Below are positions 31,692 to 42,900 of a stretch of 64,000 nucleotides of DNA, piece after piece (within the stretch, counting starts at the first letter, position 1; every line of letters starts with the position of its first letter). The DNA comes from Affinundibacterium nitidum (lineage in GTDB: Bacteria; Pseudomonadota; Gammaproteobacteria; Burkholderiales; Burkholderiaceae_D): positions 1 through 64,000 of the forward strand of contig NZ_JACOFZ010000012.1 in NCBI RefSeq assembly GCF_014284155.1, written 5' to 3'. The notes under the pieces are model-generated. The model was not told where the DNA came from, made no database searches, and worked only from the letters and a program-made list of their open reading frames with translations. The position numbers and the translations under genes are program-made.

Positions 31692-31726
31692 AAAGGTCTT
31701 ATACCTCTGTGTGTAAGACCTTTTTT
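31692..31726 (+). terminator. Rho-independent terminator after the ABC operon
   Basis: AAAGGTCTTA/TAAGACCTTT with a loop of about 12 bases is followed by TTTTGTTT. A run of nine G residues (31731-31739) comes right after it. Confidence 0.88.
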
Positions 31727-31865
31727 GTTTGGGGGGGGGCAGTTTTCTTGCCGGAGATGGTGCCTACGCCATTCGTCGCTTAGTGCTTAGAGAGATGTGA
31801 CGAATGGTTTACACTTATGCTTGGTTTTTTCTAGTCATTATTCGAATTTCATTAGGAAACTAGTT

Positions 31866-33530
31866 TTGTCCGGCATTTGCATCCCCACGTTGACACGCCC
31901 TCATTCTTTATTTGATTTCTCGCGACATCGTCGTGCGAGCTGCCTTGCGTTGGCAGTGGCGGGGCTTTGTGTCATTCATTTGCCATCGTTTGCGCAGACG
32001 CAGAACAATGTAACTGGTTATGTAGTGCGTTATGTCATCGGCTTACCCCTAAAAGAAGTACAAATCAGCGGTAATACAAAGCTGTCAAACGTCCAGTTGC
32101 AAGAAGCTATTCAAGAATTTATAGGTAAGCAGATCACTGCAAGCGATGTGGAAGAAATTCGAACGCGTTTAACGCGTGTTTATGTCGATGCTGGTTATAT
32201 CAATTCTGGTGCTGTATTCGTCATGCCTAGTTCGCCAGATAAGACTGACTCTCTCCGATTCAACATCATTGAGGGGCGCTTGCTCGAGGTGAAAGCCCAG
32301 GGACTTCAAGGCTTGCATGCTTCCTACGTGCAACGTCGCTTGCCAGCATCAACCGACGTCCTGAATGTGAATTCTTTACGAGAGCAGTTTCAGCTTTTGT
32401 TACAGGATCCCCTCTTTGAACGCATTCAAAGCCGCTTGCTACCAAGTGGGCAGCTTGGTGAGGCGGTTTTCGAACTCGATGTGCTGCGTAAAACGCCGTA
32501 TAGCTTTTCTATTTTTGCGAATAATTATCGTTCGCCTGCGATCGGCGAAGCTGTTCTAGGAGCGTCGGTCGTCGTCCGCAATTTAAGCGGAAATGGTGAT
32601 GCGCTTGATGCGCAAATTGGCAAGAGTGATGGAGCGGCGCCTTACCATGTAGCTTGGACCACACCATTGCCTAACCCTGCACAGAGCTTGCAGTGGAGTT
32701 GGGATCAAGGCCGCAGCAACGTGGTGGAAGCACCCTTGGATGTAGTCGATATTCATAGTAAGACTAGTTCGATTGAGATGAAGTGGGGACAGACTTGGGC
32801 CAATACCTTGGCGCGCCGATTTGAAATTGGGCTGGCGCTTTCATCCAAGCAAACGCGTAGCAGTTTGCTCGGTGAAGACTTTTCATTTAGTCCAGGTGAA
32901 ATCAACGGCCGTTCAAAAACGCAGGTCTTCAAGTTGTCGCAAGATTGGAGTGAACGGGGTGATAATTTTGGTTTCTTAGGTCGTTCCACTTTTTCTTTCG
33001 GTCGCAACAATAATCTTGAGCTTGACCAAAAGAGTAGCGATAGCTTGATTCCACCGCGCCAATATTTTGTATGGAATGGACAGCTGCAGTGGTTACGTCA
33101 ACTGCCGCAGGTCCATTCGCAATTATTAATGCGAGCCCAATGGCAATGGAGTCCTTCCCGCCTCATTCCAATGGAAAAAATGGCAGTCGGCGGTAATGCG
33201 AGTGTTCGTGGATATCGTGAAAGCCAATTGCTGCGTGATCAAGCGCAAGTGTTGAGCGTTGAGTTTCAGCGTGTGATATTGAATGACCCACAAAATTCCC
33301 AGCAGATCACGGCGCTTGTATTTGTGGACGGTGGCCGTGCTAAAAATCACGCAGAACAGGCACAATCATTGAGCTCATGGGGAATCGGTCTTAAAGCGCA
33401 ATATGCTGCTTGGTTTGCTGATGTGACGTTCGCCAAACGATTGCATGGTCCAGCGGGTGTAGGAGTCCCCGCAAAGCAAAGTTGGCAGGATCAAGGCGTG
33501 CAACTGCAGTTAGCCTATAAATTTAATTGA
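31866..33530 (+). CDS. TpsB outer-membrane pore of a two-partner secretion system (ShlB/FhaC/HecB family)
   Basis: The 554-residue protein has a signal peptide (hydrophobic CLALAVAGLCVIHLPSFAQ), POTRA domains (LKEVQISGNTKLSNVQLQEAI and ITASDVEEIRTRLTRVYVDAGYINSGAVF), and a 16-strand barrel with the diagnostic VRGYRE of loop L6 (near residue 447). It translocates the TpsA exoprotein encoded two genes downstream through the outer membrane. TTG 31866 is chosen because AGGA lies 8 bases upstream. A GTG at 31797 in the same frame gives 23 more residues without a ribosome site and cannot be excluded. It heads a cluster with CHAT, TpsA, cyclase and FecR-like genes. Confidence 0.9.
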   Translation: MSGICIPTLTRPHSLFDFSRHRRASCLALAVAGLCVIHLPSFAQTQNNVTGYVVRYVIGLPLKEVQISGNTKLSNVQLQEAIQEFIGKQITASDVEEIRTRLTRVYVDAGYINSGAVFVMPSSPDKTDSLRFNIIEGRLLEVKAQGLQGLHASYVQRRLPASTDVLNVNSLREQFQLLLQDPLFERIQSRLLPSGQLGEAVFELDVLRKTPYSFSIFANNYRSPAIGEAVLGASVVVRNLSGNGDALDAQIGKSDGAAPYHVAWTTPLPNPAQSLQWSWDQGRSNVVEAPLDVVDIHSKTSSIEMKWGQTWANTLARRFEIGLALSSKQTRSSLLGEDFSFSPGEINGRSKTQVFKLSQDWSERGDNFGFLGRSTFSFGRNNNLELDQKSSDSLIPPRQYFVWNGQLQWLRQLPQVHSQLLMRAQWQWSPSRLIPMEKMAVGGNASVRGYRESQLLRDQAQVLSVEFQRVILNDPQNSQQITALVFVDGGRAKNHAEQAQSLSSWGIGLKAQYAAWFADVTFAKRLHGPAGVGVPAKQSWQDQGVQLQLAYKFN

Positions 33531-33544
33531 GTAATTTCAAACCT

Positions 33545-35917
33545 ATGGCTACTTTTTCCGTTCAATGTCATCGATCCTTTGCAAGTTGGATATGCGCCAT
33601 CTGTCTACTGCTACCATTGTCTAGTTTCTCCCTCACTTTTGCTGAAATAAATCCGCAAGATCCGGAAATGTTCTCATCGCAGTGTCAATCAAGTTATTGG
33701 CTGCGTTTGCAAGACTTGAAAACTACGTATCAAAACGCGACCAGCGCTGGTGTGAAAAGAGAACTCAGTGGTCGCGCGCTCGAATTGGGCTTGCATTTGC
33801 AGCAGATGGGGCGCTACCAAGAAGCCCATATTTACCTTCAAGCTGCGGTGGATACCGCTGATAACTCGTTGCAGCGATCACGTGCATTAGTGGCTAGAGC
33901 AAATGTCGAAGTTGAACTTGGTCGACGAGACTTAGCCCAACAAGCCTATGACGAAGCCTTGGGCGCTTCGCCAGATTCGGCGGAAACCGCAATTAGTGTA
34001 GGACTGAATCGCAGCGCATTATTGACGATGGATGCTGGTAAGCAGGGCATGTTTGGGCAATTACAGCTGCTTTTGCAGCGTATTGAGCAATTGCCAGATG
34101 CCGAGAACAAAGCGCGATATTTAGTGCAATACACAGTGCAAGTGAAACGACTTGGTGGCAGCTTACCGCAGTTGGCGCCGGTTTTAGCACAGTCCCTCAT
34201 CATCGCGCAGAAGGTGGACGCTAAATATCTACAGGTCGAAATTCTTGATCAACAAGCTCAGTGGATGGAAGATCTGCAACGCCACCAAGATATGCTCCAA
34301 ATTTCTGATCAAGCGATTTTGTTATTGCAACAAATCGATGCGCCTGAACTGATGATTTCCATTGAGGCCCGTCGTGCCCGTGTGTACACGCGCTTGCAGC
34401 GCCACGATTTGGCGATAAAAAGCTACCAAATCGCGGTGCGCTACATTGAGGCCATCCGACAAGACATACCAGTATCCTATTCGCAAGGACGTTCCAGTGT
34501 GCGGGAGATGATTGATCCTGTGTATCTAGGGCTTGCTGACGCGCTGCTCACGGGCGCAGATGCTCTTGATCCTGCTGCCAAGACGAAACTACTGTTTCAG
34601 GTACGTGATGTGGTCGAGCAAATTAAACAGAATCAGTTGGAGGATTACCTAGGAAATCGCTGTAGTACCTTGAGTAATTTGAGTGCGACCACAGCATATG
34701 CGCCAGCTACTGCGCTCAAACTGAACAAAGGTACGGCAATTCTTTATCCGATTATCTTCCCCGATCGACTCGAATTATTGTTGGAGACGTCAGAAGGCAT
34801 CGCACGTCATCGGGTTGATATCACATCGAATAAATTGATCCAAGATGTCAATGCAATGTCTAGCGCCTTACGCGCTCAGCAAAGTTTTCAGACCTTGTCG
34901 CGTCGTTTGTATAAGGTCTTGCTTGCACCGCTCGATTCGACTTTGCAAGGGCAAAGCATTGAAACACTGGTGATTGTGCCAGATGGAGCCTTACGATTAC
35001 TTGCTTTTGCAGCTTTGAATGATGGCAAACAGTTTGCGGTGGAAAAATACGCCATCGCTATTTCGCCGGGCTTACGCATTATTGCCCAGCAAGTCGATGC
35101 GCAAATTAAGGGTGCACCAATAGCCCGCAAGGTTTTGTTGGCTGGGGTCAGTGAGCCAGGTAAAGTAGTTGATCGTTTGCCAGAAGATTTGGTCGACCAA
35201 TTGTTGCAAACAGATGATTTAAATGTGGAAGAAAAAAGAGGTAAGGCTGCCCGTTCTCGAGCCTTGCAAAGTCGTCAGTTGTTTGGCCCGTCGCAATCGA
35301 ACGTGTTAACCGAGCCAAATTCGACTGAGGATATGCGTGCGATTTCCAATAAGTTAAAACAGATCTTACGCTTGGATGGGGTTAGCACTGAAATTCAGTC
35401 GCTTGAAAAGATTATCAGTGCGAAGTCAATTTTGAATGTCGACTTTTCCTCGCGCAATTTTTCACAACAAGTGCGTAGTGGCGAGTTCGATATTGTGCAC
35501 GTCGCCTCGCATGGCATTTTCGGTAGCACCGCGGATAAGACTTTTATCTTGGCGCACGATGACGTGATTACGATCGATCAGTTCCAGAGTCTGCTGTCAG
35601 CCGATCAATTGAATAAGCGCCCATTAGATTTATTGGTGTTGTCAGCTTGCGAGACTGCTGAAGGTGACGATCGCGCGCCACTTGGCATATCCGGTGCCGC
35701 ATTGAAAGCGAAAGCACGTAGTGCGATGGGATCTCTCTGGCCAGTCTCTGACATTGCCGCCAGCCAGTTAATGCAATCGGTGTATCAAAATTATGTCAAT
35801 CGGCATATGAGTAAAGCCCAGTCTTTGCGTCTTGCTCAACTCGAATTGATGCAGCAAAAATCTTTTGTTCATCCGAATTTTTGGGCAGCCTTTATCGTTG
35901 TGGGGAATTGGCAATGA
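33545..35917 (+). CDS. Exported TPR-CHAT domain protein (caspase-like protease fold)
   Basis: The 790-residue protein has a signal peptide (WICAICLLLPLSSFSLTFAE), about eight TPR-like helical repeats (residues 45-300; GRYQEAHIYLQAAVDTAD, LGRRDLAQQAYDEAL) and a C-terminal CHAT domain from about 480. The predicted catalytic dyad is intact: histidine near 656 in VHVASHGIF and cysteine near 702 in LVLSACETAEGD. CHAT proteins are clan CD peptidases related to separase and caspases. Placed between TpsB and TpsA, it may process or chaperone the exoprotein in the periplasm (inference). A TTG at 33527 overlapping the tpsB stop is an alternative start. The ATG of tpsA overlaps its stop. Confidence 0.88.
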   Translation: MATFSVQCHRSFASWICAICLLLPLSSFSLTFAEINPQDPEMFSSQCQSSYWLRLQDLKTTYQNATSAGVKRELSGRALELGLHLQQMGRYQEAHIYLQAAVDTADNSLQRSRALVARANVEVELGRRDLAQQAYDEALGASPDSAETAISVGLNRSALLTMDAGKQGMFGQLQLLLQRIEQLPDAENKARYLVQYTVQVKRLGGSLPQLAPVLAQSLIIAQKVDAKYLQVEILDQQAQWMEDLQRHQDMLQISDQAILLLQQIDAPELMISIEARRARVYTRLQRHDLAIKSYQIAVRYIEAIRQDIPVSYSQGRSSVREMIDPVYLGLADALLTGADALDPAAKTKLLFQVRDVVEQIKQNQLEDYLGNRCSTLSNLSATTAYAPATALKLNKGTAILYPIIFPDRLELLLETSEGIARHRVDITSNKLIQDVNAMSSALRAQQSFQTLSRRLYKVLLAPLDSTLQGQSIETLVIVPDGALRLLAFAALNDGKQFAVEKYAIAISPGLRIIAQQVDAQIKGAPIARKVLLAGVSEPGKVVDRLPEDLVDQLLQTDDLNVEEKRGKAARSRALQSRQLFGPSQSNVLTEPNSTEDMRAISNKLKQILRLDGVSTEIQSLEKIISAKSILNVDFSSRNFSQQVRSGEFDIVHVASHGIFGSTADKTFILAHDDVITIDQFQSLLSADQLNKRPLDLLVLSACETAEGDDRAPLGISGAALKAKARSAMGSLWPVSDIAASQLMQSVYQNYVNRHMSKAQSLRLAQLELMQQKSFVHPNFWAAFIVVGNWQ

Positions 35918-38712
35918 AGAGACTAGGAACTCGTCGTCACATCTTATCGACTGCAGCATGTTTCTGCTTGTTGCAAGCACATGGCTATAGCGCGGCGGAC
36001 GTACGTACGGATGGTAGTTTAGGTGCGGTACAAATCCTGAATGGGAAAATGGTCGTGCCGCAAACTTTAGGTCAGGCCAAAGGACAGAATCTGTTCCATA
36101 GTTTTTCTGTGCTGAATGTGAATCCAGGGGAGTCTTTGAGTTTTACAACGACAGATGCGTTTCAAAATATTGTCGCTCGAGTGACAGGCGGTACCTCCTC
36201 AAACATCCAAGGTCTGCTGCAAGTGCAAGCAGCTGCAGGCTCGAAACCGAATTTTTACCTGATTAATCCTAAAGGCGTTGTTGTTGGCCAAGGCGCTGTG
36301 ATTGATGTTCCAGCGGGTTTGCATATCACCACTGCGCATTACTTGCAGTTTGCTGATGGACAGTTTCACGCTGATCTAAGTAAAGCTAGTAGCTTGTCTG
36401 CCGCTACGCCAGAGGCATTTGGGTTCTTGGGGGGCGATCGCGCCACGATTAAATTTACTGGACGAGCGCAGCTAACACCAGTTACTGGTAGAGAAATTAG
36501 TTTAGTTGCTGGCGATGTTATCGTTGAAGATACCTGGCTCAAAAGTTATGGGGGCGATATTCGTGTGATGGCTGTGGCGGATGCGCGCCTTGCGGTGAAC
36601 ACCAATGCAGTGCCAGAACTGAAAGGCACTGTTACCGTCACCGACGGTGGACTTCTTGATTCCTCTGGCGCTGCGGGTGTCAATGGTGGCAATATTGCTG
36701 TCAGTGCTGGTGATATATATATCGGATCACCTGATCTGATCTCATTTAATGGCATCAGCAGTAATGCTACCGCGCTTAGTGGCAACGCCGGCAACATCAC
36801 TGTGCGGGCCACCGGTGAGTTACGTATTGTTTCCGGTAACAGTATTACCTCATCGACGCATGGTGCGGCTAACGGTGGCGAAGTCAATATTCATGCACGA
36901 CAAATTGTGATCGATGGATATAATTTGACATCGACTGGTATTCATAGCAATGCGGAAGAAGGCACGGGCAATGCGGGACGTGTCAATGTCACGGTTGATG
37001 AGACCTTGCATATCGAAAATGGGGGAGCCATTGCCACCTCTACGTTTGCTGAAGGTAAGGCTGGCATCGTGACGGTCAATGCGAAAAATATTGTGTTGGA
37101 CGGTAAAGGAATTCCAACGGGCATCGTCAGTGAAACCAGTAGCTATCAATCGGATTCAGGCATGGGTGGCGAGGTCTACGTCCAAGCTAGCGAGAAGATA
37201 AGTATCATAGAAGGAGCGACTATTTCTGCTTCTTCCTATACTGCAGGAAATCGATATAAAGCAGCTTCAGCAGGTCAGATTTTTGTTCAAACTAATAATT
37301 TGGACATGGATGGACTAGGAGACAGCAGCACAGGAATACGAAGTTTTACGGCGAGTGTTGGCAACGCAGGCAATATCACCGTAAAGGCAAGTGGCGATAT
37401 CAACATCAAGAACGGTGCGAGTATTACGACCGAAACTAATTTCTTGGGCGCAGGTGGCAACATTACGTTAAGTGCCAACAATTTAAGTCTCGATGGTATG
37501 GGTGACTACAATACTGGTATCTTTAGTAATGTTGGAACCCAAGGCAGCGGTGACGCGGGTGCAATCAAGATTCAAGTTAATCATGGATTGCGATTACAAA
37601 ATAGCGCAAAGATATCGAGCTCAACCGACAGCTTCTGGAAGGGTTCGGCGGGTTCTGTGACGATTGATGCCGGTACGATAGTCGTGAAAGGATCAAGTGA
37701 TCCTGAATTGCCACGTACCGAAATTGTTAGTGCTGCGCATGCAAATGATTATGATCGCTACTCCACTGGAAATGCGGGCGCGGTCAATGTCCTCGCACGA
37801 GAAAGTTTGAATTTACAAGATGGCGCCAGTATTTCATCTAGTACGTATTACAAAGGCGTGGCGGGCACCGTCAATATTACATCTCCGCAAATCACCTTGA
37901 GCAATGGTGCTGCAGTTCGTTCCGAAGCAGGGGAATTTTCTTCTGGCCAAACCGGAAACTTGAGCTTAACAGCGAGTGAACGTTTGGTCGTCGATCATTC
38001 TGAAGTGTCGATCAAAAATGCGGCCAGTGCAGCCAAGCCTGAAAATATCTCGGGAACGACTCTTCAAATTCAAGCCAACACAGTCTTGCTTGATCATGCT
38101 GATATTACGGCCGCATCAAGTGGGAATATTGCGGCGAGTCAAATACAAATCGATTTTGGCCGACTCATGCGAATGACACCGGGATTAATTACGACCAGCG
38201 CTGTGAGTGGCAATGGTGGAAATATTCGAGTGAGTGGACAAGGCGCGCTCATTTTGCAGCAGTCACAAATTAGCACCTCTGTAAGCGGGCTTGCCAATGG
38301 TAATGGCGGCGATATTGCAGTCAGTGCGCCCGTGATGGTGTTAAACACCGGGGCAATCCAAGCAAATACAGCAGCCGCTCAGGCTTTTGGCGGCGACGTG
38401 AAAATTCAAGTTAGCAATATTTTGAGTAGTGGTAATCGATTACGCGTTGGTGGTGCGGCCTTGATGTTTGATCCCGCCATATCTCAATTAAATGTCATAC
38501 AGGCTGCGGCGGCTGATGGTGTAAGCGGCGCCATTACACTGGCATCACCCCCCCTGGATTTAACCGCGAGCCTGAGCAATTTGATGCCACAAGTGATTGA
38601 TAACCGAGAGCTTAATGCAGACTTTTGTCGTGTTAGTAATCAGAGTTCCATGACGATCTTGGGCCGTGGTGGTCTACCGTTTAGTGTTAAACATTTAGCT
38701 CGTGTCCAATAG
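35914..38712 (+). CDS. TpsA exoprotein: filamentous-haemagglutinin N-terminal (TPS) domain protein
   Basis: The 932-residue protein has a signal peptide (MKRLGTRRHILSTAACFCLL), then the TPS secretion domain (about 28-250) with NPKG (118-121, the NPNG equivalent). A long beta-helix passage of imperfect repeats rich in G, N, S and T follows (GNAGNITV, NAGAVNV, GSGDAGAIKI). It ends CRVSNQSSMTILGRGGLPFS, a cysteine plus GRGGLP tail known from cyanobacterial TPS exoproteins. At under 1000 residues it is short for a haemagglutinin, with no toxin or two-cysteine domain, so adhesin or surface scaffold is likely. ATG 35914 overlaps the CHAT gene stop (ATGA), indicating translational coupling. Confidence 0.9.
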   Translation: MKRLGTRRHILSTAACFCLLQAHGYSAADVRTDGSLGAVQILNGKMVVPQTLGQAKGQNLFHSFSVLNVNPGESLSFTTTDAFQNIVARVTGGTSSNIQGLLQVQAAAGSKPNFYLINPKGVVVGQGAVIDVPAGLHITTAHYLQFADGQFHADLSKASSLSAATPEAFGFLGGDRATIKFTGRAQLTPVTGREISLVAGDVIVEDTWLKSYGGDIRVMAVADARLAVNTNAVPELKGTVTVTDGGLLDSSGAAGVNGGNIAVSAGDIYIGSPDLISFNGISSNATALSGNAGNITVRATGELRIVSGNSITSSTHGAANGGEVNIHARQIVIDGYNLTSTGIHSNAEEGTGNAGRVNVTVDETLHIENGGAIATSTFAEGKAGIVTVNAKNIVLDGKGIPTGIVSETSSYQSDSGMGGEVYVQASEKISIIEGATISASSYTAGNRYKAASAGQIFVQTNNLDMDGLGDSSTGIRSFTASVGNAGNITVKASGDINIKNGASITTETNFLGAGGNITLSANNLSLDGMGDYNTGIFSNVGTQGSGDAGAIKIQVNHGLRLQNSAKISSSTDSFWKGSAGSVTIDAGTIVVKGSSDPELPRTEIVSAAHANDYDRYSTGNAGAVNVLARESLNLQDGASISSSTYYKGVAGTVNITSPQITLSNGAAVRSEAGEFSSGQTGNLSLTASERLVVDHSEVSIKNAASAAKPENISGTTLQIQANTVLLDHADITAASSGNIAASQIQIDFGRLMRMTPGLITTSAVSGNGGNIRVSGQGALILQQSQISTSVSGLANGNGGDIAVSAPVMVLNTGAIQANTAAAQAFGGDVKIQVSNILSSGNRLRVGGAALMFDPAISQLNVIQAAAADGVSGAITLASPPLDLTASLSNLMPQVIDNRELNADFCRVSNQSSMTILGRGGLPFSVKHLARVQ

Positions 38713-38752
38713 TCTTCGTGAATTGGCGATGCTGGAACACATGAATTGATTG

Positions 38753-40621
38753 ATGAGGGTGTCGAACTTGATTTCTCTTTTGAGTAAAATTTTTCAAATG
38801 ACAATTGCTACCGCTGCTCGAAATCGATGGGCGCGAGCTGCATTAATCGCCTTCCAGATAAGTTTGGTCATCGGCTCGGCTTTGTTATTGAGTGAAACAC
38901 GTTTAGGGCAGCAGATCGATTATTCTCTGTATGATCGACAATTAGCCCTTAGTCGCCAGTATTTTCCACAAGCTGTGAGTATCGATCCGGTGATCGTCGG
39001 CCTGGATGAGGCCTTTGTCGACAGTATCGATGAGCCCTTGAGCTTGAGTCACACGCATTTAGCGCAAGCCTTAGAAATTATCTCTTCATCTGGCGCGCGA
39101 GTGATTGGTGTTGATATCGCCTTACCGGAAAAACGCTTCGAAACGTTGGTCAATAAGTCCGCGCCAGAACTCGATCTTCATCGTCGCCTACTGCAGGGTT
39201 TGCTGACGACGGTCACACAATCTAAACTGGTTGTCGCCAAAGTTTGGGATAAGGATGCGCATCATTTTCGTGAACTGCAATTAGATTACGCGGCAGTTCT
39301 ACAGACGCAAGAGGGTAACTTTGACCCGATGGCATCGGCTCACTTATGTGCCGACCTCGATGGCAAGATTCGACGCTTTCCCGATCATGAGTGTCAGCCT
39401 GATCGTATCAATACCAGTCTCGCGGCTGAAGTTGCCGCAGCGTATGGCGTACGGCAGAATTGGCAAGGCCTCATCAATTTTCGTTTGGGCTCTACGATGA
39501 GTTACCGGTCTCTGAAGACCATTTTGCAAATGCACGCGCAAGGCGACCAGATTGACCTGCGACATTTATTCGACGGTAAAGTGGTACTGGTCGGTTCGAC
39601 TCAAGATTACGTGGATATCTTGCATTTACCAGCTCCTTTGGCGCGCTGGTTGCCGGACTCTGAGCGGGTGCCAGGCGTCCTCGTTCATGCGCAGGCTGTT
39701 CGCAGCATGCTGAATCAAGGAATGATGCAGAGCATTGCGAATACTTCGTGGCAGGTAATATTACTGTGCCTCATTGCATCGACGTTTCTTTTCGGTCGAC
39801 GTATCGCACTCAAGTTGAGCTTGGCGTTCATTGCGATATTGGGCTTAGCTTGTTTGAGTTTTCTGATGTTCTTGCAGAATCGCTGGCTGTCCGTTTCAGC
39901 AGTGCTGTTGACATTAATGTTTGCCAGCCTATGGAGCATCAGCTGGCAAGCGTGGCAGCATTTTGTAGATAAACAGAAGTTGGCTAAAGCGTTTACTGGA
40001 AGGGTTAGTCCACAAGTCATGTCGGCGATTATGGAAAATGATGTGGGCGCAATGCAGCACAGCCATCGCGAGAAAGTATGCGTGCTGTTTTCAGACGTAC
40101 GTAATTTCACCACGATGTGTGAACACATGCCTGCGGAGCAAGTAGTCAATTTACTTAATCGCTATTTCAGCTTAATGGTGGCAGAGATACACAAGCAGGG
40201 TGGCACAGTTGATAAGTTTATTGGAGATGGCCTGATGGCATTTTTTGGCGCACCGAATACCTTGCTTCATCCAGAACAACAGGCTTTGAAAGCAGCGCGT
40301 GGGATGCTAGTAGCATTGGAAGACTTTAATCGTGAAATTTCAGCGCAAGGTTTTGGTGCTTGGAAAATTGGTATCGGCTTACACGCAGGTGAGGCCGTAA
40401 TTGGTATTTTGGGTTCTGAGGAACGTCACGAATACACCGCCATCGGCGATGTGGTGAACACGGCAGCTAGGTTGGAGAGCATTTCCAAAAACCTTCAATA
40501 CCCTATTATTGTTTCAGACATCGTGGCAAGTGCAGTGGGCCCAGACCCGAAGTTGGTGCCATTGAATGAACAGGAGCTGAAAGGGCGCTCAGCGATCGCC
40601 GTTTTCGGTTCGGCGGATTAA
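38753..40621 (+). CDS. CHASE2-domain adenylate cyclase (class III)
   Basis: The 622-residue membrane protein has an N-terminal helix, an extracytoplasmic CHASE2 sensor domain (about 45-330; DPVIVGLDEAFVDSIDEPL, SGARVIGVDIALPEK, GKVVLVGSTQDYVDI), three transmembrane helices (about 335-420) and a C-terminal cyclase domain. Both metal aspartates are present (D448 in LFSDVRNFT, D492 in GDGLMAFFG), as are the adenine-selecting K488, IGDVVN and the transition-state pair in NTAARLE. It therefore probably makes cyclic AMP in response to a periplasmic or membrane signal. It follows tpsA by 40 bases and precedes the FecR-like gene. The start is ATG 38753; a TTG just before it is unlikely. Confidence 0.9.
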   Translation: MRVSNLISLLSKIFQMTIATAARNRWARAALIAFQISLVIGSALLLSETRLGQQIDYSLYDRQLALSRQYFPQAVSIDPVIVGLDEAFVDSIDEPLSLSHTHLAQALEIISSSGARVIGVDIALPEKRFETLVNKSAPELDLHRRLLQGLLTTVTQSKLVVAKVWDKDAHHFRELQLDYAAVLQTQEGNFDPMASAHLCADLDGKIRRFPDHECQPDRINTSLAAEVAAAYGVRQNWQGLINFRLGSTMSYRSLKTILQMHAQGDQIDLRHLFDGKVVLVGSTQDYVDILHLPAPLARWLPDSERVPGVLVHAQAVRSMLNQGMMQSIANTSWQVILLCLIASTFLFGRRIALKLSLAFIAILGLACLSFLMFLQNRWLSVSAVLLTLMFASLWSISWQAWQHFVDKQKLAKAFTGRVSPQVMSAIMENDVGAMQHSHREKVCVLFSDVRNFTTMCEHMPAEQVVNLLNRYFSLMVAEIHKQGGTVDKFIGDGLMAFFGAPNTLLHPEQQALKAARGMLVALEDFNREISAQGFGAWKIGIGLHAGEAVIGILGSEERHEYTAIGDVVNTAARLESISKNLQYPIIVSDIVASAVGPDPKLVPLNEQELKGRSAIAVFGSAD

Positions 40622-40695
40622 AATGCCCATGAAATCGCGTAATATATGCCTCTAAGAGACTTAGCTTTACTACCTTCTTCTGATTGATGCCTCGT

Positions 40696-41559
40696 ATGAA
40701 AAAACTAGCACCTGCCTTTATAGCGGCTTTATTGTTGATGCAAACCGTGTATGCCATGGCCCAACAGACTGCCAATGTGAAAGATCCTAGCATCGGCATC
40801 GTGCTTGATCTGCAAGGACAAGCTAAGGTTCTCGATCAGGCGCAGGGGCGTAAGCTTCAATTGCTTAGTTATTTGAAGCAGAACGAACAGGTACAGCTAG
40901 AACAAGGGGCAAAGCTCTCGGTCTCACTTTATGCGAACCGTTCTGTTTATCGATTTGTTGGTCCAGCAGTGCTGGTCGCTGAAAAAGACCAAATTCGATT
41001 GATTAAGGGCGCTGCACCGGAAGTTAAACAGGTCAAAGAAAAGCTGGTCGCGGGAGCGGAATCAGGCCAACTCTTGACTGGCGCGATTCGTATGCGGCAG
41101 CTGCCACCGAAGATTGCTGTGTTAACACCAGAAAATGGCGCAGTCCTATTGGGCGCGCCGAAAGAGTTGAACTGGGCCTCGGTCGAAAAAGCAAACTATG
41201 AGATTCGCATTGTCGACGAGGATGAGAATTTGATCATCGAAGCACAGAGCGCGAGCCAAACTTGGATGCTACCCGCCGCATTGCAGTTTGCATCTGGCAA
41301 AGCGTATAAGTGGAATGTGAGTTTTATCTCAGAACGTGATGGGGCGAGATACAGTACAAGCGGAGAATTTCGTTTGGCCGATGAGACAACGCGAATCGAA
41401 TTATCGAAGTTGCGTCCGACGGATGATGCCGTCATTGAAGAATGGGTGCTGTATGCTGCACATCTGCAATCTTTAGGTTTATTCCAAGAAGCGCGCGCCA
41501 CCTGGAAGCGTATTGGTCAAACACGACCAGATCTAGAACGCAGCATGGAATCCAAATAA
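40696..41559 (+). CDS. FecR-like periplasmic protein
   Basis: The 287-residue protein has a signal peptide (MKKLAPAFIAALLLMQTVYAMA), then a FecR-type beta domain (IGIVLDLQGQAKVLDQAQGRKLQ, LEQGAKLSVSLYANRSVYRFVGPAVL). A fibronectin-III-like domain follows (about 145-235; PKIAVLTPENGAVLLGAPKELNWA), and last comes a helical TPR-like segment (LYAAHLQSLGLFQEARATWKRI). It lacks the cytoplasmic N-terminus of true FecR anti-sigma regulators, so it is probably a soluble periplasmic partner. The same FecR-TPR layout occurs beside CHASE2 cyclases and CHAT proteins elsewhere, which suggests a shared pathway. ATG at 40687 (three residues earlier) is equally possible. It ends the cluster. Confidence 0.72.
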   Translation: MKKLAPAFIAALLLMQTVYAMAQQTANVKDPSIGIVLDLQGQAKVLDQAQGRKLQLLSYLKQNEQVQLEQGAKLSVSLYANRSVYRFVGPAVLVAEKDQIRLIKGAAPEVKQVKEKLVAGAESGQLLTGAIRMRQLPPKIAVLTPENGAVLLGAPKELNWASVEKANYEIRIVDEDENLIIEAQSASQTWMLPAALQFASGKAYKWNVSFISERDGARYSTSGEFRLADETTRIELSKLRPTDDAVIEEWVLYAAHLQSLGLFQEARATWKRIGQTRPDLERSMESK

Positions 41560-41637: not shown

Positions 41638-42900
41638 TTAGATTTCGGTTTGATCTGGGTGATTTACGTGAAAATCGATAATCACTTGGCCACTGATTTT
41701 CTTTACCGTGCCATTACGACGCATAATGCTCGCGGTTTTTTCTGGAACGTAGTATTGCTTCAGGTGAATATCAATCGCCTTTTCGTGAAAGGCCTCGCTC
41801 ACTGTTTTATGCACACGCTTGAGTAATTGGCGCTCGGCTACAGTGGCGACACCAAGGCTGAAATTCTCTCCATAATCAGCGTCGTTACTTAAACCATTAT
41901 CGTATTCATGATAAAAATCAGCGGCGGTTTGGTGAAAGTCGCGACGGGTAGTGACACTGTAACGAACGGCTGTATTTGGGAAGAAATTGGCGACAATATT
42001 GTGTTCGATTAATTCTTCAGGATCAGTACATAAGACATGCAAGCGCTCGTCACTCGATTCAATAATGAGCCATTCATGACGATCGACAAAAGCGCGCGGG
42101 AAAGTTTTTGTGCGTAATGGAATAGGGCGGTCGGCTCGATAGGCTTCATATTCGAAACCATAAAATTTAGTCAAAGCGTCACCAATACTCTTCAGGCTTA
42201 CTTGAAATTCATCGACTAAAACACTTTCTAGGTCTATTCCTTTACGGCGAGATGAGCTAGTCGCTAAAGCTAATTCTGGTGCAGAGAGCACGCCACCAAT
42301 GACGAGATGATCGTATTTACTACGAACGACAGGCGCAGGCTTCAGACGTTTTTCAAATGCCACTGCGAGAGTCTCACAAATTAAACGCATGCCATCTTCC
42401 ATGATGGCCGAGAAATGATCGCCTTCGCGTGTGTTGATCAATTGCAGCACGCCTAAGATTTCGCCGGTGTTGGCATTGACGATAGGCCCCGTCAGCATTT
42501 GCTTTGTACGATATCCAGTACGTGAATCTACTTTACTTCTAAACTCGAGCTTCGGCGTATATTGGGCTAGTTCTTGGGTGTCGTACACATTACGTATATT
42601 CACCAATTTCTTGGTGAGCGCGACATAACCAGCGATGCTGCTGCCGGCAATCGGTAATGAAAAGTCTTTAAATGATTTAAGACCAGTCTTTACGGTGGTT
42701 TGAATTTCCAGCTTCGATTCTGTCACAGCATACAGTGTTAAGTGTTCTGCTTTAAATTGATCACGGATAGCATCAGACAAATCAAGCATGATTTGTTGTA
42801 CGTTATCTGTCGCATGAATTTTGTTAGTGATGTCTTGCAGAGACTTCAAAAAAGTTAATCGGTGAAATAATTCGTATTCTTCTGTGTGCGCTCGTTGCAT
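41638..42900 (-). CDS. GAF-domain protein with GspE/PilB N-terminal-like region but no ATPase domain
   Basis: The 420-residue protein starts with a GAF domain (about 14-185; IRDQFKAEHLTLYAV, GSSIAGYVALTKKLVNI, ILGVLQLINTREGD). A region resembling the MshEN/GspE N-terminal domain follows (about 225-345; GVLSAPELALATSSSRRKG, VLVDEFQVS, VLCTDPEEL). The last part, KAIDIHLKQYY...MRRNGTVKKISG, resembles the beginning of the type II secretion ATPase N2 domain (ASDIHxEP...RxDG). It stops there: no Walker A, Asp-box or Walker B follows. It may be a regulator of a pilus or secretion ATPase, or a decayed one. It is convergent with the FecR-like gene, and nothing secretory is adjacent. Confidence 0.75.
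   Translation of the reverse strand: MQRAHTEEYELFHRLTFLKSLQDITNKIHATDNVQQIMLDLSDAIRDQFKAEHLTLYAVTESKLEIQTTVKTGLKSFKDFSLPIAGSSIAGYVALTKKLVNIRNVYDTQELAQYTPKLEFRSKVDSRTGYRTKQMLTGPIVNANTGEILGVLQLINTREGDHFSAIMEDGMRLICETLAVAFEKRLKPAPVVRSKYDHLVIGGVLSAPELALATSSSRRKGIDLESVLVDEFQVSLKSIGDALTKFYGFEYEAYRADRPIPLRTKTFPRAFVDRHEWLIIESSDERLHVLCTDPEELIEHNIVANFFPNTAVRYSVTTRRDFHQTAADFYHEYDNGLSNDADYGENFSLGVATVAERQLLKRVHKTVSEAFHEKAIDIHLKQYYVPEKTASIMRRNGTVKKISGQVIIDFHVNHPDQTEI

Follow-up and report, generated by a model that had tools for sequence, protein, structure and literature searches.

Does a presumed protease whose gene lies inside a two-partner secretion (TPS) operon act on the protein that this operon exports? 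The question is raised by a 64,000-nucleotide stretch of contig NZ_JACOFZ010000012.1 from Affinundibacterium nitidum (the window; its genome is treated here as Undibacterium), in which the genes for a TpsB pore, a tetratricopeptide-repeat (TPR) protein with a CHAT domain and a TpsA exoprotein follow one another on the plus strand. According to the available part of a review, genes for proteases that mature TpsA seem to lie outside TPS operons (PMC5422565), and a gene for a presumed TpsA-processing protease inside such an operon, in several phyla and even fused to TpsA, is contrary to that expectation. Our analysis points to a subtype of type Vb secretion with its own protease and sensor, in which CHAT may process or release TpsA in a manner like that of LapG and CdrA, a reading that we regard as evenly poised between right and wrong. 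Window genes were taken from a list of open reading frames (ORFs) and domains from Pfam. The genes and residues at issue are the following:

31797..33530, plus strand: tpsB, the two-partner secretion pore (POTRA_2 1.3e-12, ShlB 1e-22; a TTG start at 31866 is also possible)
33527..35917, plus strand: TPR-CHAT gene, 796 aa (CHAT 6.4e-51), with a signal-peptide-like N-terminus
33683..33685, plus strand: Cys53 of CHAT, an extra N-terminal cysteine
34661..34663, plus strand: Cys379 of CHAT, non-catalytic, kept in 78 of 84 CHATs
35498..35512, plus strand: HVASH of CHAT (His658...His662), presumed catalytic His, from the CHAT alignment
35648..35650, plus strand: Cys708 of CHAT (SACET), presumed catalytic Cys, from the CHAT alignment
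35914..38712, plus strand: tpsA, exoprotein of 932 aa (TPS domain 7.4e-27; ORF from 35881, start ATG 35914)
38626..38628, plus strand: cysteine 1 (Cys1) of the TpsA tail, the sole tail cysteine in the window
38662..38679, plus strand: GRGGLP tail motif of TpsA, 11 residues past Cys1

TpsB combines a POTRA domain with an Omp85 barrel of the ShlB/FhaC type, as in type Vb secretion, the N-terminal TPS domain of TpsA was found by both Pfam (7.4e-27) and TIGR01901 (3e-15), and CHAT (PF12770) was matched over its full length at 173.9 bits, against a curated cut-off of 24. A hydropathy scan flagged export-type N-termini on TpsB, CHAT and a small protein encoded downstream; the signal peptide of TpsA was seen by eye, and the 19-residue scan did not flag it. 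A preliminary description of this DNA had listed TpsB, a signal-peptide-bearing TPR-CHAT protein, TpsA, a CHASE2-cyclase and a small exported protein as consecutive, with which the ORFs and Pfam agree. The ATGA overlap that it placed between CHAT and tpsA is also present, with the CHAT stop and the tpsA start sharing four bases (35914-35917). It further had tpsB and CHAT touching or overlapping, and the overlap depends on the choice of start: with TTG 33527 the CHAT gene overlaps the tpsB stop by four bases, whereas with the alternative in-frame ATG at 33545, just past that stop, there is no overlap. By whole-genome search, the window genome has a single CHAT match and a single TPS-domain match.

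Linkage of CHAT and TpsA recurs in Betaproteobacteria, Methylococcales, Desulfobacter and Cyanobacteria. Gene order differs, CHAT mostly preceding TpsA in Betaproteobacteria and following it in Cyanobacteria, and the linkage is kept; co-occurrence beyond this strain had been set beforehand as a test, and adjacency in other phyla, with the order rearranged, bears it out. The scan of genome contigs retained the best 80 of 530 confirmed loci, which biases the survey towards close relatives; supplemented from other searches, it comprises 98 loci with a CHAT of the window's or a near type, 71 of which have at least 70% of the surrounding ±8 kb. Within 8 kb of these 71 well-covered CHATs, TpsA is found at 54, CHASE2 at 41, DUF928 at 31, TpsB at 28 and the family of the window's small protein at 9. 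Where CHAT and TpsA are separate genes (65 loci), they lie at most 400 bp apart in 52, of which 50 are on the same strand. CHAT relatives occur in 8 of 196 genomes of the window's family, with TpsA beside CHAT in six (window included) and other CHATs in two. Outside the window genome, all five strong relatives adjoin TpsA and the two weak ones do not, and the linkage is thus not a matter of chance. In a profile search at 1e-40, CHAT matched 11 of the order's 399 genomes and 18 of the family's 393, and a genome of the same genus (G177) carries the cluster. Across ten cyanobacterial genomes, the numbers of TPS-domain and CHAT matches correlate (rho 0.77, p 0.009). Each of these genomes (G779-G788) holds 6-57 TPS, 7-45 CHAT and 8-33 DUF928 matches, the CHAT counts including split matches and longer or other CHAT proteins.

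In some bacteria TpsA and CHAT are parts of one polypeptide. L082, a contig from a Myxococcales metagenome that is truncated 5', carries a single ORF with a TPS domain and TPR-CHAT, and at L084 a TpsA-like sequence at the start runs into CHAT, with TpsB following. The L082 protein matches 29 of 90 genomes of its class (Myxococcia) at 1e-40, and we fetched every listed match whose open frame is 1252 aa or longer (18 in total), plus two shorter ones. In 17 of the 18 long frames, from nine genomes, the TpsA and CHAT profiles fall on one ORF, TpsA first (fusion loci L330-L342 and L344-L347, in addition to L082); at L343, a profile search of the fetched stretch found no single TpsA-CHAT ORF. Of the shorter matches, L348 encodes TpsA, TpsB and CHAT in separate genes, and L349 is truncated where its contig begins. 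TpsB lies within the fetched stretch for 13 of the 17 fusions, Pfam finds TPS and CHAT in all five fusions tested, and the His and Cys pattern is present in 16 of 17; ORF starts are overextended in these GC-rich stretches, which makes the N-termini unsure. The fusions indicate that TpsA and CHAT work on or together with one another, and they place CHAT outside the cytoplasm.

His658, His662 and Cys708 are invariant across all 72 aligned CHATs, from which 12 of 84 rows had been excluded beforehand (six without Cys379, the others broken, cut, overlong or near-duplicate). The dyad, described earlier as intact, is retained in 83 of the 84, the sole exception being a broken ORF. With the cross-phylum adjacency, the dyad and the natural fusions, the earlier claim that CHAT belongs with TpsA in a real gene set stands, and the earlier proposal of a periplasmic action of CHAT on TpsA is the leading hypothesis. 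Six CHATs lack Cys379 (L015, L016, L051, L071, L078 and L093, with a Cys two columns away in L078), and TpsA is absent from the ±8 kb fetched around each of them, coverage being poor at L015 and L093. Extra cysteines are even in number in 10 of the 14 cyanobacterial CHATs that have any, which fits an oxidising location; several of these CHATs are close relatives. At E 1e-3 the window's partner protease matches the TPR and CHAT families only, with no LapG-type domain; LapG belongs to another protease family than CHAT. Among the best 60 of 244 matches of the CHAT profile to solved structures only TPR or designed proteins appear, and solved structures gave no relative for the CHAT half alone and none for TpsA. 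In a plasmid search, all matches to CHAT were below 60% identity and covered less than 80% of the query.

The tail of TpsA bears a signature that points to a likely processing site. Partner TpsA share the pattern Cys-x(about 11)-GRGGLP-...-Cys, and in a set of 116 non-identical TpsA the tail holds two cysteines in 101, one in 14 and four in a single protein. A GRGGLP-like motif (at least three of the six letters) occurs in 111 of the 116, with G-R-G-G at 109, 94, 107 and 102 of these 111, and lies 11 residues from Cys1 in 78 of the motif-bearing tails. In the first survey (64 TpsA ORFs, namely the window and 63 others), the last 200 residues contain exactly two cysteines in 60, and the body is free of cysteine in 55. 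The 116 proteins include 36 complete TpsA from ten cyanobacterial genomes, chosen by their TPS domain, and 32 of these have the two-cysteine tail; CHAT loci had led us to these genomes, every one of which has CHAT matches. As a control, we took 40 TPS-domain matches in frames of about 790-1970 aa among the listed matches in the window's family, 11 of which are cut by the fetched stretch. None of the 29 complete proteins, similar in size, has a two-cysteine tail, and GRGG occurs in one, located 253 residues before its end; under the stricter rule of this control, 55 of the 64 first-survey TpsA pass. The 40 control stretches hold a weak CHAT match in L164 (itself cut) and CHASE2-profile matches in L140, L153 and L158.

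The window TpsA has the GRGGLP tail that was originally described, in a one-cysteine form that had been missed, and it lacks the second cysteine of an HMW1/HxuA/CdrA-type hook. Eleven loci share this form (the window, L010, L011, L028 and L217-L223): Cys1 and GRGG or GRGA are kept, TpsA ends 9-11 residues past the motif without a second cysteine (Cys2), and the CHAT of all 11 has one extra cysteine shortly after the signal peptide. On a CHAT tree built by a quick method, the extra N-terminal cysteine (Cys53 in the window) is present in 11 of 12 one-cysteine loci versus 3 of 29 two-cysteine loci. An exchange of cysteines between TpsA and CHAT is not significant on this tree, where only two to three independent changes occur, and we treat it as a lead only.

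How might these parts work together? The scheme that we infer builds on the gene set, the export-type N-termini, the intact dyad, the conserved tail, the fusions and the co-travel of these genes. TpsB would export a beta-helical TpsA but leave its tail in the periplasm, where in most of the family a Cys-Cys hook probably encloses GRGGLP. The TPR-CHAT protein, also periplasmic, would dock on this tail or, in the fusions, form its C-terminal domain, and a CHAT cut in the tail would release or mature TpsA. A CHASE2 sensor, together with a periplasmic partner of the DUF928 type, may link the state of the system to a second messenger or a phosphorelay; the messenger might be sensed, in Undibacterium, by a GAF-MshEN protein. 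The finding of TpsA-CHAT fusions strengthens this reading. Caspase-fold relatives often cut after Arg; a cut after Arg would fit the R present in 94 of 111 motif-bearing tails, and would fit neither the rest nor most fusions. A strictly required tail Arg is weakened by the same count.

Several observations weigh against processing or release by CHAT. No TpsA lies within 8 kb of 17 of the 71 well-covered CHATs, and 21 of 23 cyanobacterial TpsA in CHAT-free stretches still have the tail, although their genomes hold many CHATs. Another residue stands in place of R in 17 of 111 motif-bearing tails, 5 of the 116 TpsA have no motif at all, and the fusion tails mostly lack RGG, several retaining GLP only. 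The motif rule is lenient, firing at 622 of 2320 random body places; the evidential weight rests on the motif letters and the spacing from Cys1, not on the rule itself. Moreover, a cut within a disulfide loop would leave the two halves joined, and the window TpsA, without Cys2, has no hook in cis.

In a different arrangement, the protease itself would be the plug. That arrangement, a tether that severs itself, is one we consider possible but doubtful: Cys1 and Cys379 would be bonded, CHAT would cut beside the bond and TpsA would be freed, with CHASE2 watching. In the fusions, TPR-CHAT would form a folded periplasmic block behind TpsB. Such a bond is suggested because, from the tail onward, 16 of the 17 fusions have just these two non-catalytic cysteines: each fusion has one tail cysteine, and 16 then have only two more, the Cys379 equivalent and the catalytic one, with two extra in L342. 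The Cys379 equivalent lies about 253-259 residues before the catalytic Cys in all 17, and the fusions make a self-severing tether more likely. In split systems the Cys1-Cys379 bond would join TpsA and CHAT in trans; in Undibacterium, TpsA is without Cys2 and CHAT has the extra N-terminal Cys, an association that is not significant.

The rest of the locus bears on what such a system might report. It comprises:

38750..40621, plus strand: CHASE2 sensor with a class III cyclase domain (CHASE2 2e-27, cyclase 7.7e-24)
40684..41559, plus strand: small exported protein, C-terminal half DUF928-related (no Pfam match at 1e-3)
41638..42900, minus strand: GAF and MshEN gene without a T2SSE ATPase domain, convergent, the sixth gene
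31692..31723, plus strand: terminator-like hairpin and T-run between upstream ABC-transporter genes and the tps genes (consensus scan only)

The set in the window thus consists of six genes, for TpsB, TPR-CHAT, TpsA, the CHASE2-cyclase, the small exported protein and, convergently, GAF-MshEN; the five genes of the preliminary description were correct, and the unit runs on to 42900 with the GAF-MshEN gene that it had missed. A gap of 40 bases separates tpsA from the first CHASE2 ATG, and 62-65 bases separate the CHASE2 gene from the small-protein gene. In consensus scans, terminator-like sites around the tps genes were no more frequent than in shuffles, and promoter-like sites in the region were fewer than shuffles give.

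The window CHASE2 protein has one N-terminal membrane span and a span group between CHASE2 and the class III cyclase domain. In ten hand-picked CHASE2 proteins the output is a cyclase in four, a histidine kinase in two, GGDEF in two, GGDEF-EAL in one and a CHAT fusion in one. CHASE2 is constant and the output varies; therefore cyclic AMP (cAMP) is not the general signal, and the earlier proposal that the sensor cyclase couples to cAMP does not hold as a rule. The CHAT-CHASE2 fusion is cyanobacterial (L038:14143-16482, minus strand) and lies near a TpsA-CHAT pair, with His and Cys kept by eye; its CHAT precedes the first membrane span and is probably cytoplasmic. The small protein had been called FecR-like, a label that was dropped: Pfam gives no FecR match at E up to 1. 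Pfam gives no DUF928 (PF06051) match to the window protein either, the curated cut-off not being reached. Six of ten members of its family match DUF928 weakly at E up to 0.1 (best 2e-5), and a profile-profile comparison of family and DUF928 gave 93.5% probability (E 2.3e-7, 77 columns). We regard the protein as a distant relative of DUF928, without assigning it to that family. In all five cyanobacterial cases tested, the small gene next to CHASE2 encodes DUF928, the Desulfobacter counterpart is without a Pfam assignment, and in the Burkholderiales L192 and L195 DUF928 follows CHASE2 by profile, which Pfam confirms for L192.

These neighbours could be read in the outside-in direction, with surface TpsA sensing contact: when TpsA is bound or pulled, CHAT would be freed or activated and would act through the DUF928-type protein or CHASE2 on the output. 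We think this rather unlikely. Retention of CHASE2 while the output swaps among the ten hand-picked proteins speaks for it, as do CHASE2 at 41 and DUF928 at 31 of the 71 well-covered loci, the existence of a CHAT-CHASE2 fusion and the co-travel of GAF-MshEN in Undibacterium; yet CHASE2 is absent within 8 kb at the other 30, the L038 CHAT is probably cytoplasmic, and contact sensing by itself leaves the tail cysteines unexplained. CHAT might instead assist assembly, as a TPR chaperone or a quality-control protease that would keep TpsA fit for export or clear stalled TpsA, with the tail as a docking signal only. The large TPR region and the several TpsA that accompany one CHAT at L066, L086 and L092 are consistent with such a factor, but the catalytic residues are invariant, and the fusions put one CHAT on each TpsA, odd for a general factor; we take this to be unlikely.

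A conflict or defence module, in which CHAT is an effector protease triggered by TpsA or by invaders, seems to us improbable. CHAT is named an effector domain of bacterial defence systems in the available part of one source (PMC10907252), and the fusions share their layout with some toxins that, in the part available of another, have a C-terminal caspase-like domain on an exported protein (PMC3482391). CHAT is here exported and usually a separate gene, however, and a Pfam scan of the window proteins found no toxin domain on TpsA; immunity genes were not searched systematically. Finally, the genes could be chance neighbours with no common function, as the patchy presence of CHAT (18 of 393 family genomes) might suggest. 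Linkage across several phyla, in two gene orders and, inside the genus, at no fewer than two chromosomal sites, together with the fusions, leads us to reject this explanation as having next to no probability.

Processing or release by CHAT has its nearest parallels among known TPS systems. As described in the available parts of the sources, Pseudomonas CdrA/CdrB is held by a C-terminal cysteine hook, its tail is cut by the periplasmic protease LapG, which releases it, and control is by a cyclic nucleotide, c-di-GMP (PMC5422565, PMC7616799, PMC11898600). Here, unlike there, the protease is a CHAT that shares the operon or the polypeptide with TpsA, a CHASE2 sensor serves as membrane partner and a conserved GRGGLP lies between the cysteines. 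In Haemophilus HMW1/HMW1B and HxuA/HxuB, a C-terminal disulfide loop locks TpsA in TpsB; the window TpsA lacks the second Cys of such an anchor, and the available part of the review describes no dedicated protease gene or GRGGLP for them (PMC5422565). Bordetella FHA is likewise released at the surface by proteolysis, though its protease SphB1 is a subtilisin autotransporter encoded elsewhere. Polymorphic toxins also place a caspase-fold protease on an exported protein; in the present set, export is through TpsB and TPRs accompany CHAT, and the word CHAT is absent from the searched text of that source (PMC3482391). Cyanobacterial TPS/CHAT/DUF928/CHASE2 neighbourhoods resemble the window in the adjoining families and the tail, but have many copies per genome, TpsA usually before CHAT, TpsB in few stretches and longer tails with both cysteines. 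The families are individually known, and their union was not found in open-licence literature: searches there for CHAT domain with two-partner secretion or hemagglutinin, and for GRGGLP, gave no match, the fusions not being searched by name. The reading suggests a definite function that can be examined for exported CHAT proteins, for DUF928 (a name found in one open-licence paper) and for many cyanobacterial TPS-domain proteins, and holding or release of these surface proteins becomes testable with point mutants.

The sixth gene is narrower in distribution. MshEN (PF05157) was matched in the 41638-42900 product at 32.7 bits (cut-off 23.1), and a paralogue elsewhere in the window genome is a GAF-MshEN protein with the T2SSE ATPase domain that the short form lacks. 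Ten Undibacterium genomes carry the window-type set, and the short form lies beside the cluster in nine of them; in the remaining one, G743 (L224), the set occupies a third chromosomal location within the genus and the contig stops inside tpsA. At 1e-60 no short form was found in the other 34 of 44 genus genomes, where the matches are longer paralogues in frames of 784-822 aa (544 aa in G605), and a plasmid search for GAF-MshEN gave one weak match. As a general partner GAF-MshEN was rejected: the short form is seen in Undibacterium only, and the Desulfobacter neighbour is a GAF-HD protein. That protein (HD_5; L063:2399-4105, minus strand, Desulfobacter latus) lies beside a TpsB-TpsA-CHAT-CHASE2-cyclase cluster and is possibly another cyclic-nucleotide link. 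A further Undibacterium locus, L226 (G723), has a TPS-type CHAT of another clade, beside Rhodoferax L021 on the tree, which suggests a separate acquisition. At L011 and L217-L221 the block is flanked by nitrate-reductase-type and M13-peptidase-type genes (by eye), and L222 shares one flank. In the window and at L223 its neighbours are an ABC permease and an M16 peptidase; the side of the M16 gene on which the block lies differs between these two, and it therefore moves as a unit.

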